NCBI GenBank assembly: GCA_009839485.1
Contig: VXPQ01000025.1
Coordinates: 1-64,000 of the forward strand
DNA: 64,000 bases
Direction: 5' to 3'
Source of the DNA: Bacteroidetes bacterium SB0662_bin_6
GTDB taxonomy: Bacteria > Bacteroidota > Rhodothermia > Rhodothermales > VXPQ01
The notes beneath the pieces are model-generated. The model was not told where the DNA came from and ran no database searches. It was given only the letters and a program-made list of their open reading frames with translations. The position numbers and the translations under genes were made by a program. Below, piece by piece: positions 4,772 through 24,240 of the stretch. How positions within the stretch are numbered: the first letter of the stretch is position 1; each line of letters begins with the position of its first letter.

Positions 4772-7504
4772 ATGAACCCGAACACCATGATACGCTTCCG
4801 CTGCCTGACGCTTGCCGCTACGTTGTTCTTCGCAGGTTCGGCATTTGCTCAAACGAATGTCTCCGGCACAGTTACCGACGCCGATACCGGAGAGCCCCTT
4901 CCCGGCGCGAACGTGATCGTCGAAGGAACGGCGATGGGCGCCGCCACAGACGAAAACGGCCGCTACGCGATCGATGATATTCCGTCGGGCACCCATACGC
5001 TGACCGTGTCCTTTGTCGGATACGACGACCTCTCCAGCGTCGTCACCATCCGCTCCCAGGATGTGACCGCCGATTTCCGCCTTGCGTTTTCAAGCGAAGC
5101 GCTCGAAGCGCTGGAAGTATTCGCCTCACGCGCTGTGGACCGCAAGACGCCCGTCGCCTTCACCAATGTGGACAAGGTGCAGATACAGCGGGAGCTCGGA
5201 TCGCGCGACGTACCGCTGGTGCTCAACGTCACGCCGTCCGTGTACGGAACCGCCCAGGGCGGCGGAGCCGGCGACGCCCGCGTGAACGTGCGCGGATTCA
5301 ACCAGCGCAACGTGGCCATCATGATCAACGGCGTCCCGGTCAACGACATGGAGAATGGCTGGCTCTACTGGTCGAACTGGGACGGCCTCAGCGACGCCAC
5401 GTCCTCCATCCAGCTCCAGCGCGGCCTGTCCGTCGTCAATCTGGCCACTCCGTCCATCGGCGGCACCCTGAACATCATCACCGATCCGTCGGAGAACACG
5501 CGCCAGGTCATGGCCAAACAGGAAGTCGGCAACGATGGCTTCCTGAAATCCACCGTTTCCCTTTCGACGGGCCTGATCGACGGCAAATACGCCTTCACGG
5601 TGTCCGGCGTGCGCAAGACCGGAGAAGGCTACTACGACGGCACATGGACCGATGCCTGGGCCTACTACGCCGCCGCGGCCTGGAACGTCAACGACAAGCA
5701 CCGCCTCGACCTCTATGTCGTGGGCGCTCCCCAGCGTCACGGGCAGAACCTCTATCGCCAGAACATCGCCGCATACGATCACGAGTATGCCCGAGAAGTC
5801 TTCGAAAAAGATGGGCTGGACCGCGCAACCATCGACGACATTCTGGAAACCTTCCCGGAAGCGGGCCGGCGCTGGAACGAAAACGTGTCTTCGGTTTCCT
5901 CGCAATACCGCATGGAGCAGCACGACGGATTCGGAACGGTCAAGCGCATCCAGGCGGGCCAGATCAACGAGCGGGAGAATTTCTTCCATAAACCGCAGCT
6001 CAACCTGAACCACTACGCGCAGCTTTCGGACAAGTCGCTCCTGTCCACCGTGGTTTACTATTCCGGCGGAAAAGGCGGCGGGACCGGCACGAAAGGCTCC
6101 ATGGAATGGGACTACAGCGGCCCTTCCCGCGTCGTCGACTACGACGCCACGATCGCAAGCAACCGGGAGCACGGGCAATCCCTCGGCATCCTCCGGAACA
6201 GCCACAACGTCCAGTGGACGATCGGCGCCATTTCGAAATTCAAGCATGAGCCGAACGAAAACGTTACGCTCGAGGCGGGAATCGACTGGCGCACCGCAGA
6301 AATAGAGCACTACCGGACGGTGCGTGACCTGCTCGGCGGAAGCGGCTATCAGCGGTTCGACAGCGATTTCTGGGGAGAGAACGGCAGAATTCTCCAGCCG
6401 GGAGACCGTTTCGACTACAACAACACCAACACCGTCGACTGGGCCGGCGCATTCGCACAGGGCGAATACGCCCGGAACGCCCTGACCGCATACGGCATGT
6501 TCGGGTACTCCATGGTCAAGTACACCTACGAGGACCTCTTCAAAAATGACGGTACGGGCAATACGTTCAAAACGGAGTCGGACCGCATCGGCGGCTACCA
6601 GATCAAGGGCGGCGCCTCCTGGGCTGCAAACGATTACCTGTCGGTTTTCGCGAACGCAGGCGTCGTCTCCAAAGTGCCCATCTTCGACGGAGCCATCGAT
6701 GACGTAACCGGAACGTTGAACCCGGACCCGCGGAACGAACAGTTTGCGGCCTTCGAAGCAGGCGCCGCGTTCCGTTCCCCGGACCGCAAACTGGCCGGGA
6801 AACTCAATGTCTACCACACGACCTGGAACGATCGCACCATCACGCGTTTCGTGACGGAACAGGACGGCGACGATGGCCTGATCAACATCAGGGGCCTCAA
6901 CGCCCTGCACCGAGGCATCGAAGGCGAACTGGCGTACCAGCCGCTGAACATCGTCCGCGCGGACGTAGCCGTTTCGCTGGGCAACTGGAAATACACGGAC
7001 AATGTCTCGGCGGCCTACACGCCGGACCAGTCGGACCCGTCCACCCAGACCCAGGTGGATATCTACGTGAAGGACGTCAAGGTGGGCGATGCGCCCCAAA
7101 CGCAATTCGTCTACGCCGTGACGCTGTTTCCGGTCGAGGGACTGTATGCGAAGTTCACGGGGCGTTCCTACGCGAACTACTACGCGGATTTCGATCCGAC
7201 AAGCCGTACGGATCCCGCCCAGGCCGGAGCGCAGGTCTGGAAGGTGCCCGCATACAACGTGTTCGATCTGAACATGGGGTACGACATCCCGCGTGAACTG
7301 CTCGGCCTGTCGCGTTTCGATATCCGGGTGCTGGCCAACGTGTTCAACGTGTTCGACAGCTTCTACATCCAGGACGCCACGAACAACTCGCGTTTCAACG
7401 CCTACCGCGGAAACGGAAGAGATGCGAACACGGCCGACGACGCGGAAGTCTTCCTCGGCCTGCCCAGAACGTTCAACCTCGGGGTCCGGGTTATTTTCAG
7501 GTAG
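4772..7504 (+). CDS. TonB-dependent outer-membrane receptor with CarboxypepD-regulatory-like domain
   Basis: A 910-residue outer-membrane receptor. The signal peptide ends in AGSAFAQ; an in-frame ATG at 4787 (MIRFRCL) would give a more compact one. Residues ~30-115 form the carboxypeptidase-regulatory-like beta sandwich (VSGTVTDADTGEPLPGANV). Residues ~125-250 form the TonB plug (DARVNVRGFNQRNVAIMING). The rest is a long barrel ending NLGVRVIFR. Such receptors import large or chelated substrates with energy from TonB/ExbBD. No SusD partner or catabolic gene is adjacent, so the substrate cannot be guessed. Confidence 0.93.
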   Translation: MNPNTMIRFRCLTLAATLFFAGSAFAQTNVSGTVTDADTGEPLPGANVIVEGTAMGAATDENGRYAIDDIPSGTHTLTVSFVGYDDLSSVVTIRSQDVTADFRLAFSSEALEALEVFASRAVDRKTPVAFTNVDKVQIQRELGSRDVPLVLNVTPSVYGTAQGGGAGDARVNVRGFNQRNVAIMINGVPVNDMENGWLYWSNWDGLSDATSSIQLQRGLSVVNLATPSIGGTLNIITDPSENTRQVMAKQEVGNDGFLKSTVSLSTGLIDGKYAFTVSGVRKTGEGYYDGTWTDAWAYYAAAAWNVNDKHRLDLYVVGAPQRHGQNLYRQNIAAYDHEYAREVFEKDGLDRATIDDILETFPEAGRRWNENVSSVSSQYRMEQHDGFGTVKRIQAGQINERENFFHKPQLNLNHYAQLSDKSLLSTVVYYSGGKGGGTGTKGSMEWDYSGPSRVVDYDATIASNREHGQSLGILRNSHNVQWTIGAISKFKHEPNENVTLEAGIDWRTAEIEHYRTVRDLLGGSGYQRFDSDFWGENGRILQPGDRFDYNNTNTVDWAGAFAQGEYARNALTAYGMFGYSMVKYTYEDLFKNDGTGNTFKTESDRIGGYQIKGGASWAANDYLSVFANAGVVSKVPIFDGAIDDVTGTLNPDPRNEQFAAFEAGAAFRSPDRKLAGKLNVYHTTWNDRTITRFVTEQDGDDGLINIRGLNALHRGIEGELAYQPLNIVRADVAVSLGNWKYTDNVSAAYTPDQSDPSTQTQVDIYVKDVKVGDAPQTQFVYAVTLFPVEGLYAKFTGRSYANYYADFDPTSRTDPAQAGAQVWKVPAYNVFDLNMGYDIPRELLGLSRFDIRVLANVFNVFDSFYIQDATNNSRFNAYRGNGRDANTADDAEVFLGLPRTFNLGVRVIFR

Positions 7505-7557
7505 GGAAAATCACAGCTTCCCGGACCTGGAACACCCTCTCCGGACCGGCCTGCCAA

Positions 7558-7596
7558 GGCCTGTTAACATTATGCAGCGGCGCTCTGCGGGGCCTA
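7558..7596. repeat. 39-bp intergenic repeat, copy 1 (3' side of katG)
   Basis: This matches 24202-24240 at 36 of 39 positions. It contains GGCC at the left, a GCAG..CTGC dyad in the centre and GGCC near the right, so it can fold. It lies between convergent genes and ends two bases before the katG stop codon. Confidence 0.85.
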
Positions 7597-7598
7597 AC

Positions 7599-9848
<2,250 letters not shown>

Positions 9849-9893: not shown

Positions 9894-9981
9894 GACGCGG
9901 GCGGAGGCATTTCACGTACGCGTTGTCCGGCGGTAAAACAACAGCAAATCAGCGCGGAAGATCGACGCGCCATCGCTGCCC

Positions 9982-11082
9982 TCAATAAACGAACGGCAGC
10001 ATCGCATAAGGCACCCGCTGCTTGTATTGTTCCCACAACTCCCCATACTTGGCGCGGCAGCGGCGCTCATCACGTCTCGAACGATGCCACAACAGACCCC
10101 CCAGCCACACGGGCAAAAGATAAGGCGCCCAGGAGGCGAACCCGGTGGTAAGGGCAAACGCCAGGTAGATGCAGATCTCGCCGGTATAGTTCAGATGTCG
10201 TCCAATACCCCAGAATCCGGAAATCAGCAGGCGTCCGTCCAGGGTCCGGGCGGGTTTGCCCCAAATCATGGCGCCAGGATCCCGCTTGAAGCGGTGCTTT
10301 TGCCCATTGGCGCCGCGAAAGAGCCAGAAGCCAAAGACGAACAACAAAACGATCGCGACGGCCGCGAGGGGAGACAGCGGCTCCGGGGCATGCACCAGCC
10401 ACCATCCGGGGAGGCAATAGAAAAACGGCACCAGCACATAGTCCCCCCAAACCAACGCCCATCCGAAGCGCTCACTGATCATGTCCCAGGTGTATATCAT
10501 CCCGCCTTCGAAATGGAAGTAGTTGAGCACGTACGAAAAGGTAAATAGCTGATAGAGCGCCATGGCCAGGGTCAACCCGCCGTAGGTTTCGTACTGCACG
10601 ACCGCAAACGACACGTTGAACAGCGCCAGACCGATCAGGGAAGGGCGGTAACTGAAAAGCTTCAAATCCACTCCGAGAAAAGTCGGATTGAATTCCGATC
10701 CCATCAGGAAACTTCGCCAATTGCCCGGCGATGCATCCCGAGTCCGTGCTCTTCGGAAGTACAGCCAAGCGGAAAAAGCAAATGCGAATGCGTTTGCCGC
10801 CACGAACAGCGCGGCAAAACGGGTATGCAGCACCGAAAGAGAAAACAAGCCGGAGACCTGGGCAAGACATCCCCCGATCACGGTGATCAGGAATAAGGCG
10901 AGGCCGTTGAGCTTGTAGGTGCGCGATCGCCCCTCTATTTCCGGTCCCGTAACCCGATGTCCGGGCAGGAGCTTCGAACCCAGAAATAAAACGCCGACGA
11001 ACGCCAACAGCATTGCGACCGCCTCCAGCACGGTGCGGACCGACAGCGTGGACCACAAGAAGTACGATTCAGGCACCGGCAT
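9982..11082 (-). CDS. Delta14/Delta7 sterol reductase-like integral membrane protein (ERG4/ERG24/DHCR7 family)
   Basis: A 366-residue multi-pass membrane protein. The ATG at 11082 is set by a perfect GGAGG six bases upstream. It carries the diagnostic blocks of NADPH-dependent sterol reductases in the expected order: FNPTFLGVDLKLF, SERFGWALVWGDYV, FRGANGQKHRFKRDPG with IWG, LLISGFWGIGRHLNYTGEI, and the C-terminal RRDERRCRAKYG, WEQYKQRVPYAMLP. Family enzymes reduce the C14 or C7 double bond of sterol intermediates; bacterial homologues are scattered. It is shorter than eukaryotic members but keeps the catalytic C-terminal half. No squalene epoxidase or cyclase is in the window, so the physiological substrate is uncertain. 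Confidence 0.88.
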   Translation of the reverse strand: MPVPESYFLWSTLSVRTVLEAVAMLLAFVGVLFLGSKLLPGHRVTGPEIEGRSRTYKLNGLALFLITVIGGCLAQVSGLFSLSVLHTRFAALFVAANAFAFAFSAWLYFRRARTRDASPGNWRSFLMGSEFNPTFLGVDLKLFSYRPSLIGLALFNVSFAVVQYETYGGLTLAMALYQLFTFSYVLNYFHFEGGMIYTWDMISERFGWALVWGDYVLVPFFYCLPGWWLVHAPEPLSPLAAVAIVLLFVFGFWLFRGANGQKHRFKRDPGAMIWGKPARTLDGRLLISGFWGIGRHLNYTGEICIYLAFALTTGFASWAPYLLPVWLGGLLWHRSRRDERRCRAKYGELWEQYKQRVPYAMLPFVY

Positions 11083-11330
11083 TTTCACCCTCCGTCTCGT
11101 GCGCCAGATACTCCGGCCACGGGCGCACCCTCACTTTTTGAAAAGCCTGCGCCACTGGATTGACCGTGATGAAGAAGCCAATATACCATGCTTACACAAG
11201 TCTTGTCGCATGCTGCGCGAATCCCCCGCCGAGCGCAATCCGGCGCGCAATACTCGCCATCATTGCGCCATCCCCCTCCCGAATTTTCCCGTCCGAGCCG
11301 GGTTACACTTCCCCATCCGGCGTGTCTATA

Positions 11331-11393
11331 GGATAGTCTGATTAAGTCCGCGAAGTTCAGAGGCTGAGCGAAGCGGTTTTGATCAGACTATCC
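11331..11393. mobile_element. 63-bp fold-back element with TA flanks (MITE-like)
   Basis: Perfect 12-bp terminal inverted repeats GGATAGTCTGAT (11331-11342) and ATCAGACTATCC (11382-11393) enclose 39 bp that also contains shorter dyads (CCGC/GCGG and TCAG/CTGA). The dinucleotide TA lies directly outside both ends (11329-11330 and 11394-11395), as expected from IS630/Tc1-type insertion. It could instead be a transcription-terminating hairpin. Confidence 0.55.
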
Positions 11394-11403
11394 TAATACA
11401 AAT

Positions 11404-11856
11404 ATGAGGACACCCGTTTGCATCATTGCCGCCCTGCTGGCGCTTGCCGCCGCCCCACCCGCCGCCGGGCAGATGGTTACCGACACCACGTTCAGTTGGC
11501 GGGGATACCGTAACGTTTCGACCTGCCGCGTGCGCATCTACCGCTCGGCCCCAAAGGCCGCGCGCCCTATGACCGTAGTCCTCGACGAACTCGCCGAGAA
11601 CCGGGGACGCTCCACGCTCGACGATGCGCCGCACCTCGCGGAAATGCTGTCGCGGAGTTTCCCGGTACGGCCGGACTCGGCCTTCTGGATATTCCGTTGG
11701 GGATCGTTCAGCTTCCCCGGGGCAACCCCCGGAAAAAAGGAAATCTACCTCCGCGCCACGTTCCGCCGAAGCAAAAACGGAGCGCTGGGATCGCCTTCCT
11801 GGCGCCTGATCGACCGGGCCGCCGTAAGCGAATACACGGACCGGGCCTATCGATAG
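11404..11856 (+). CDS. Small exported protein of unknown function
   Basis: A 150-residue protein beginning with a signal peptide (MRTPVCIIAALLALAAAPP, cleavage near AAGQ). The mature part starts with SWRGYRNVSTCRVRIYRSAP and contains several Arg- and Trp-rich beta-like strands (FWIFRWGSFSFPG, EIYLRATFRRSK). No family was recognised. A single cysteine remains after processing. The gene stands alone between the fold-back element and a large inverted repeat, convergent with pdxH. The signal peptide makes it likely to be real. Confidence 0.65.
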   Translation: MRTPVCIIAALLALAAAPPAAGQMVTDTTFSWRGYRNVSTCRVRIYRSAPKAARPMTVVLDELAENRGRSTLDDAPHLAEMLSRSFPVRPDSAFWIFRWGSFSFPGATPGKKEIYLRATFRRSKNGALGSPSWRLIDRAAVSEYTDRAYR

Positions 11857-11965: not shown

Positions 11966-12078
11966 AGGCCCTGTGATCGCACATTTTCACGTAACGTAAA
12001 CGTGCGGCAGGCTACGGGTTCGCAGGCGTTTCTCGGGCCCTACGTTCCCTGAAAATGTGCGACCACAGAGCCTTAAGG
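11966..12078. repeat. Long imperfect inverted repeat between convergent genes
   Basis: CTGTGATCGCACATTTTCA (from 11971) pairs with TGAAAATGTGCGACCACAG (ending 12068). With the adjoining ACGT, 27-base arms (11971-11997 and 12042-12068) show about four mismatches, and pairing extends outward through AAGGCC/AGCCTT. The loop contains a further CACGT...ACGTG dyad. It sits just after the pdxH stop. It could be a bidirectional terminator or a MITE-like relic; there is no U-tract. Confidence 0.65.
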
Positions 12079-24196: not shown

Positions 24197-24201
24197 GCCA
24201 G

Positions 24202-24240
24202 GGCCTGTTACCACTATGCAGCGGCGCTCTGCGGGCCCTA
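24202..24240. repeat. 39-bp intergenic repeat, copy 2 (3' side of the GGDEF-like gene)
   Basis: This differs from 7558-7596 at three positions. It lies between the ends of the convergent pcm and GGDEF-like genes, and its last three bases form the stop codon of the minus-strand gene. Confidence 0.85.

Follow-up and report, generated by a model that had tools for sequence, protein, structure and literature searches.

The window, the whole 64,000-nucleotide stretch analyzed from the genome of Bacteroidetes bacterium SB0662_bin_6 (G000), carries an intact ERG24-type sterol reductase gene whose start overlaps the 3′ remnant of a second gene, sdmA (Table 1). The reductase gene lies exactly where the sequence-only reading had placed it. 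It probably begins with the ATG at 11082 and ends with a TGA at 9982-9984; read from an upstream GTG at 11088, the same ORF spans 9982-11088(−) and 368 codons.

Table 1. Features of the reductase locus, in window positions
Feature	Positions	Strand	Basis and remarks
ERG24-type sterol reductase gene, intact	9982-11082	minus	ATG start, 366 aa; profile, structure and dN/dS evidence
sdmA 3′-end remnant, in the sdmA frame	11069-11170	minus	tblastn similarity and overlap geometry
GGAGG, putative ribosome-binding site	11089-11093	minus	sequence; 6 nt before the ATG, within the sdmA remnant
Segment missing in the closed genome G003	9907-11281		reductase, stub and about 110 bp; gap between the presumed katG and the 11423 region

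Family, fold, and active site of the reductase

The window protein matches the PF01222 (ERG4_ERG24) profile at E = 1.5e-72 and 245 bits (Pfam; cut-off 27 bits), covering profile positions 72-432 of 432; NCBIfam assigned no family. Its best solved relative by phmmer is 4quv, a Delta14-sterol reductase (E = 2.5e-69), followed by 9l5r, whose chain is named Delta14-sterol reductase (E = 1.1e-38). An AlphaFold2 model (mean pLDDT 85, pTM 0.86) aligns with 4quv at E = 1.4e-21 and TM 0.81 over 353 columns (Foldseek), with steroid 5-alpha-reductases far weaker (E about 0.5-1). The PF01222 match and the 4quv fold bear out the membership in the sterol reductase family that had been proposed from sequence alone. 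The competing assignment, to DUF1295 or isoprenylcysteine-methyltransferase-like proteins, had been named as the outcome that would overturn that proposal. It draws on a weak DUF1295 match (E = 1.7e-9, 37.9 bits; Pfam), of a strength expected from distant kinship, and no isoprenylcysteine methyltransferase family appeared among the Pfam matches to the protein. Because ERG4_ERG24 scores far above DUF1295 and the model fits 4quv, the comparison came out negative for this assignment; the nearest relatives, moreover, lie between SdmA and CYP51 in operons, and we regard its probability as negligible.

On profile and model grounds, the gene is predicted to encode a membrane sterol reductase of the ERG24/MaSR1 type that depends on NADPH. 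With MaSR1 (4quv, from Methylotuvimicrobium (Methylomicrobium) alcaliphilum) the window protein shares 37-38% identity, a TM of 0.81-0.82, and nearly all tested residues, but it lacks roughly the first 50 MaSR1 residues and differs at two positions described below. Reduction of the Delta14 bond of C-14-demethylated sterols is suggested by the CYP51 neighbor in relatives' operons.

MaSR1 residues were mapped to the window protein via the phmmer alignment. Y241, D257, K319, N359, R395, and D399, of which K319 and D399 were picked as presumed functional positions, are kept as window Y186, D202, K264, N300, R336, and D340. Conservation was read from an alignment of 85 rows, comprising 80 genome_contigs loci (the best 80 of 137 relatives) minus three copies, plus eight genes that include the window's and two paralogues. 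The Y186 column holds Tyr in 85/85 rows, the N300 column Asn in 82/85, and the R336 column Arg in 83/85, the remainder being gaps or the two paralogues. In MaSR1, N359 and R395 sit in the NADPH pocket, according to the accessible part of PMC4951196, and Y241 and D363 are predicted catalytic residues (PMC12489058, in part). The two differences concern R323, which becomes Lys268 in a column with Lys in 79 rows and Arg in 5, and D363, which becomes Glu304, with Glu in all 84 rows that have a letter there.

The two sequence blocks on which the family call had originally leaned, RHLNYTGE and RRDERRC...YKQRVPY, are both in the translation, but NYTGE is not the canonical ending: The motif closes on Asp in the two solved Delta14 reductases (NYFGD, NYLGD). 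RHLNYTGE is best read from the alignment as a clade-specific form of RHxNYxGD, and the Asp-to-Glu replacement at the predicted catalytic position as a conservative change. This clade-wide Glu poses a testable question about reductase specificity.

A sterol operon in related genomes and its remains in the window

The remnant upstream of the reductase is recognizable by similarity to SdmA of G002, a genome of the window's own genus, at 11078-11170(−), where residues 335-365 of 367 align at 65% identity (tblastn E = 1.2e-6 in a search space of the window plus two stretches of G004, a second genome of the genus). Its frame is open for 40 codons, and what is left of the sdmA 3′ end amounts to about 30 codons. 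The remnant's stop codon at 11069-11071 gives a 14-nt overlap with the reductase start that is identical in the window, G002, and G004, and of the 64 operon loci where both genes are measurable, 63 have an SdmA stop that overlaps the nominal start of the reductase. The reductase's putative ribosome-binding site inside the stub may be a reason for the stub's retention. G004 has a stub of its own (locus L024; E = 3e-13), 40 residues in length and seven longer than the window's. Before it comes a fragment of SdmB (E = 2e-4 and 1.6e-5 in two comparisons), the layout expected if a single deletion had run from about SdmB codon 57 to SdmA codon 328.

The intact arrangement is found in sister genomes. 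Among 60 genomes profile-searched for PF01222, G000 included, seven had a match above cut-off. Six of the matches were near full length: G000, G001, G002, and G004, all of one genus, and G044 and G056 from another family; the seventh genome, G046, had a short C-terminal match. Across the phylum, PF01222 matched at E ≤ 0.001 in 60 of 394 genomes, mostly as short C-terminal matches, and only 6/394 reached 350 or more profile positions. In G001 and G002 the order is SdmB-like, SdmA-like, reductase, P450, and a squalene-epoxidase/oxidosqualene-cyclase (SE/OSC) fusion in one long frame (1202 aa and 1164 aa, respectively), followed on the opposite strand by ERG2 and SMT. Protein families were assigned on the proteins of G002; the P450 matches solved P450 51 chains at E = 1e-107 and is a CYP51. 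G056 repeats this arrangement as far as the fusion protein, and contig ends interrupt the series in G044. G044 and G056 also carry second, divergent PF01222 copies (L028 3030-4181 and L029 7979-9115, respectively), which are 32% identical to the window protein and have GYxGE in place of NYxGE; the G044 copy adjoins a Pyr_redox_2 protein.

Published work has already described operons of this kind in bacteria that live in sponges. Kelly et al. 2022 describe clusters of steroid genes (CSGs; ERG24-CYP51-LSS operons) from Ircinia sponge symbionts in ten phyla, with Rhodothermia among the classes, horizontal transfer, an omega of 0.13 for ERG24, and genes sometimes scattered or in doublets (PMC9531527, in part). 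The reductase type and gene order of G001 and G002 match these clusters. ERG24-CYP51-LSS stand side by side in G001, G002, and G056 and, split by contig ends, in G044; the window has only the reductase and the sdmA stub, an orphan erosion that the available portion of PMC9531527 does not describe. Brown et al. 2023 report functional sponge-symbiont SMTs, sdmAB clusters, fused SMO/OSC proteins, and a chlamydial SMT without de novo synthesis; these clusters are related to the operon of the window genus, but the focus of that paper, as far as its accessible text goes, is SMT and not orphan ERG24 in Rhodothermales or Acidobacteriota (PMC10070321). Because that paper already reports "fused SMO/OSC homologs", we make no claim of novelty for the fused SE/OSC. 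No published account of operon erosion to an orphan ERG24 was found in the open-license PubMed Central literature.

The operon's absence extends to the genome as a whole. G000 (2.92 Mb, 69 contigs, about 96% complete) has one PF01222 gene. Neither a PF13243 cyclase nor a PF08491 epoxidase turned up in a genome-wide profile search, and a joined-query genome search gave no SdmA, ERG2, or CYP51 match, the sole P450 match being 24% identical; this joined-query search missed the window's 31-residue SdmA stub, which direct comparison found. The sequence-only reading, which saw no sterol pathway around the gene, thus holds for the genome. It was right to doubt a full pathway, yet it had not noticed that remains of an operon adjoin the gene, and same-genus relatives carry that operon whole. 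The closed, single-contig G004 likewise has no match to cyclase, epoxidase, or CYP51, and SdmA only as its 40-residue stub. We therefore rejected de novo sterol synthesis by G000, which the searches make very unlikely. That the full pathway exists in the organism and is merely missing from the assembly, as the 69 contigs and incomplete recovery might allow, is highly improbable: The assembly covers the operon's site, where there is nothing but the stub, and G004 is in the same state on one contig.

Two other lipid-related genes persist. A squalene-synthase-like PF00494 gene is kept in G000, in G004, and in G003, a genome of the genus that has no reductase; its retention is for that reason uninformative on sterols. 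An SMT-family gene 41% identical to the operon SMT lies on another G000 contig (Sterol_MT_C E = 9.9e-15), but G004, with no SMT match at E 1e-25, keeps its reductase, so pairing of reductase and SMT is not general. These genes bear on whether the enzyme has been repurposed to reduce another polycyclic or isoprenoid lipid of its own cell (for example squalene-, carotenoid-, or quinone-derived). Such a role would fit a squalene-synthase-like gene kept though no cyclase was found, and the uniform Glu at the position of MaSR1 D363. The former, however, is also present in the reductase-less G003; the Glu state is shared by operon-borne members and is therefore not tied to orphaning; and no lipid gene noticed nearby points to a new substrate. 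We judge repurposing improbable.

One genus thus spans an intact operon in G001 and G002, the orphan plus stub in G000 and G004, and an empty site in G003, a series that offers a concrete system for studying pathway loss. As G003 does without the gene, the reductase is dispensable in the genus. G003, G004, and G005 (the last a fragmented assembly of 670 contigs) are 84-93% identical in DNA to the window region over long matches, G001 and G002 76-84%; cyclase and epoxidase are absent from G000, G003, G004, and G005 (0/4) and present in G001 and G002. The simplest history is one early operon loss, with later removal of the reductase in G003. The deletion endpoints of the window and G004 lie about 7 codons apart, and, given this difference, independent losses in G000 and G004 are possible.

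A short palindromic element at window 11320-11405 (TAGGATAGTCTGAT ... ATCAGACTATCCTA) has a core that matches dozens of sites in G003, G004, and G005, which makes it an interspersed MITE- or REP-like repeat beside the eroded locus; it could have aided rearrangement. Another palindromic repeat (window 11966-12076, about 110 bp) recurs in G001-G005, and a short repeat at 7550-7600 is 91% identical to 24197-24240, with similar pieces recurring in G005. Downstream of the reductase and on the same strand lies a catalase-peroxidase-like gene (window 7599-9824(−)), which we take to be katG; it is present in G003, G004, and G005 at 92-93%, with no match listed in G001 or G002. Next to the reductase in G004, a frame of 443 aa (L024 10167-11498) corresponds to a longer window gene (4772-7504, 910 aa), both presumably TonB-receptor-like; this shorter gene, together with the differing local gene order, indicates that the region has been rearranged.

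Descent and selection on the orphan gene

A quick IQ-TREE phylogeny of 83 reductases, with SH-aLRT supports only, places the window, G004, G001, and G002 genes in one clade (support 98), apart from other Rhodothermales genes and nested inside a clade of operon-borne reductases. The window protein is as similar to a Nitrospira protein as to that of G002 (78% each). Horizontal reacquisition from another phylum was nevertheless rejected, as the same-genus genes group together, and vertical descent within the genus is the preferred reading of the tree. Summed from the common node, branch lengths come to 0.175 and 0.174 in the two orphans, against about 0.27 and 0.32 in the operonic pair; orphan branches being no longer than operonic ones, orphaning came without a rate increase.

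The orphan reductase is under purifying selection. Between the window and G004 its dN/dS is 0.21 (dN 0.052, dS 0.249; Nei-Gojobori, as for all pairs here), a value that mixes time before and after the loss, because the endpoints differ and a single shared loss is unproven. The corresponding ratios are 0.22 for window-G002 and 0.14 for G001-G002, and 0.13 for the presumed katG between the window and G004. The stub differs between the window and G004 by 7 nonsynonymous and 5 synonymous changes; faster stub decay as a sign of relaxation found no support on comparison with the reductase (Fisher p 0.35).

The main rival to continued function is a relic in decay: recent, independent operon losses in G000 and G004 would have left the reductase as the last unbroken gene, without present use. 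The stub beside the gene, the differing deletion endpoints, and the empty site in G003 are what such decay would produce, and the dN/dS could reflect constraint from before the loss. Set against this, two species whose proteins differ by 10% both retain an intact start codon and ribosome-binding site, the full gene length, and the active-site residues; the distribution of cyclase and epoxidase, in none of the four close genomes and in both sisters, makes one old loss simpler; the orphan branches show no acceleration; and the acidobacterial genes described below are orphans kept for long. Decay without use is accordingly the less probable outcome, and we hold it to be rather unlikely.

Orphan reductases in the wider clade and a tailoring role

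A scan of genome_contigs returned 137 relatives of the window reductase, of which the best 80 were retained. By their record titles, these 80 come from Nitrospirota, Alpha- and Gammaproteobacteria, Binatota, Acidobacteriota, Gemmatimonadetes, Opitutales (Verrucomicrobiota), Chloroflexota, Dadabacteria, and Rhodothermales. The record title of one locus (L069) names a sponge, and many of the others are, we presume, sponge metagenome bins. Within flanks of up to 10 kb, some ended by contig ends, the best 80 of the 137 loci have as neighbors SdmA (66), P450 (66), SdmB (62), SE (61), OSC (60), SMT (45), and ERG2 (9); SE and OSC share one frame at 60/60 loci, with no intervening stop in 57.

Eleven acidobacterial reductases form one clade of the tree (support 100) and have no operon genes in their flanks (up to 10 kb). 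All 11 genomes were searched, and 10 gave no match to a sterol-type cyclase, CYP51, or SdmA. Their cyclase matches are strong and of squalene-hopene type (about 350-384 bits), plus some partial ones; the only exception, G072, also has matches of about 180-190 bits, the range of the operon cyclases, with CYP51 and SdmA elsewhere in the genome. The squalene-hopene and oxidosqualene labels given to these cyclases are provisional, being based on score and frame length. SMT homologues occur in 11/11 genomes (43-49% identity), and the reductases have an omega of 0.07-0.15 (median 0.11, 55 pairs). The clade indicates that a sterol reductase can persist under strong selection without sterol-type cyclization genes, usually with an SMT homologue, and shows an orphan state independent of and parallel to that of the window genus.

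Among the remaining loci without a cluster, genomes vary in what accompanies the reductase: That of locus L090 has reductase and SMT (73%) with no cyclase match; that of L106 has CYP51, a partial SdmA, and an SMT homologue, also with no cyclase match; and that of L073 has cluster genes elsewhere. Three genomes (G019, G029, G050) carry SMT-family genes 41-42% identical to the operon SMT (L031 10505-11536, L034 9228-10262, and G029:C107) with no cyclase, epoxidase, or reductase match; Sterol_MT_C was seen for the G019 gene.

Sterol reductases without a de novo pathway have been described in intracellular bacteria—Legionella drancourtii, Protochlamydia, Coxiella, and sponge Chlamydiae—and for Legionella the authors speculate on parasitism of host cholesterol (PMC2667531, PMC9666466, in part). 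As the accessible text presents them, these are Delta7 or Delta24 types gained by transfer, from eukaryotes in the case of Legionella, whereas the window orphan would descend from a bacterial operon by loss. The 8,14-Bsr of Methylococcus works at this same post-CYP51 step but is an unrelated NTF2-superfamily protein that yields 8(14)-sterols (PMC13277303, in part).

For the window gene, we lean modestly toward its being the last intact gene of a deleted de novo sterol operon, its enzyme now tailoring sterols from the host or neighbors. The ancestral operon would have been sdmB-sdmA-reductase-CYP51-SE/OSC fusion, with ERG2 and SMT adjoining, and the ancestral substrate presumably the CYP51 product. 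G000 does not make that product for a Delta14 reductase, so the substrate would have to come from outside. The enzyme probably still works, protonating a ring double bond—Delta14 or another nuclear double bond—and reducing it with NADPH, as proposed for ERG24 in the available part of PMC12489058. Substrate sterols would arrive from the sponge host or sterol-making neighbors, making this a tailoring-only species, and the SMT-family gene elsewhere in G000 could work beside the reductase. Life in a sponge is itself suggested for the source organism by its relatives. The sequence-only reading had left it between an organism that makes sterols, one that modifies them, and an enzyme acting on another lipid: The first is very unlikely for want of cyclase and epoxidase, modification of outside sterols is the best supported, and the third is the repurposing weighed above.

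More broadly and more tentatively, some sponge symbionts may have moved from making sterols to tailoring those of others, deleting the cyclization and demethylation genes and keeping a Glu-variant ERG24-type reductase under strong selection, often with an SMT-family methyltransferase. Such a shift would have arisen at least twice, through the operon erosion visible in the Rhodothermales genus and again in the acidobacterial clade, giving a community division of labor with exchange of sterols or intermediates. Sponge sterols are used as molecular fossils for tracing the earliest animals, and how much bacteria contribute to them is debated (PMC10070321, in part). If the proposal is true, sterol pathways would be split between partners, and one sterol enzyme in a bacterium would not amount to the capacity to make the whole molecule.
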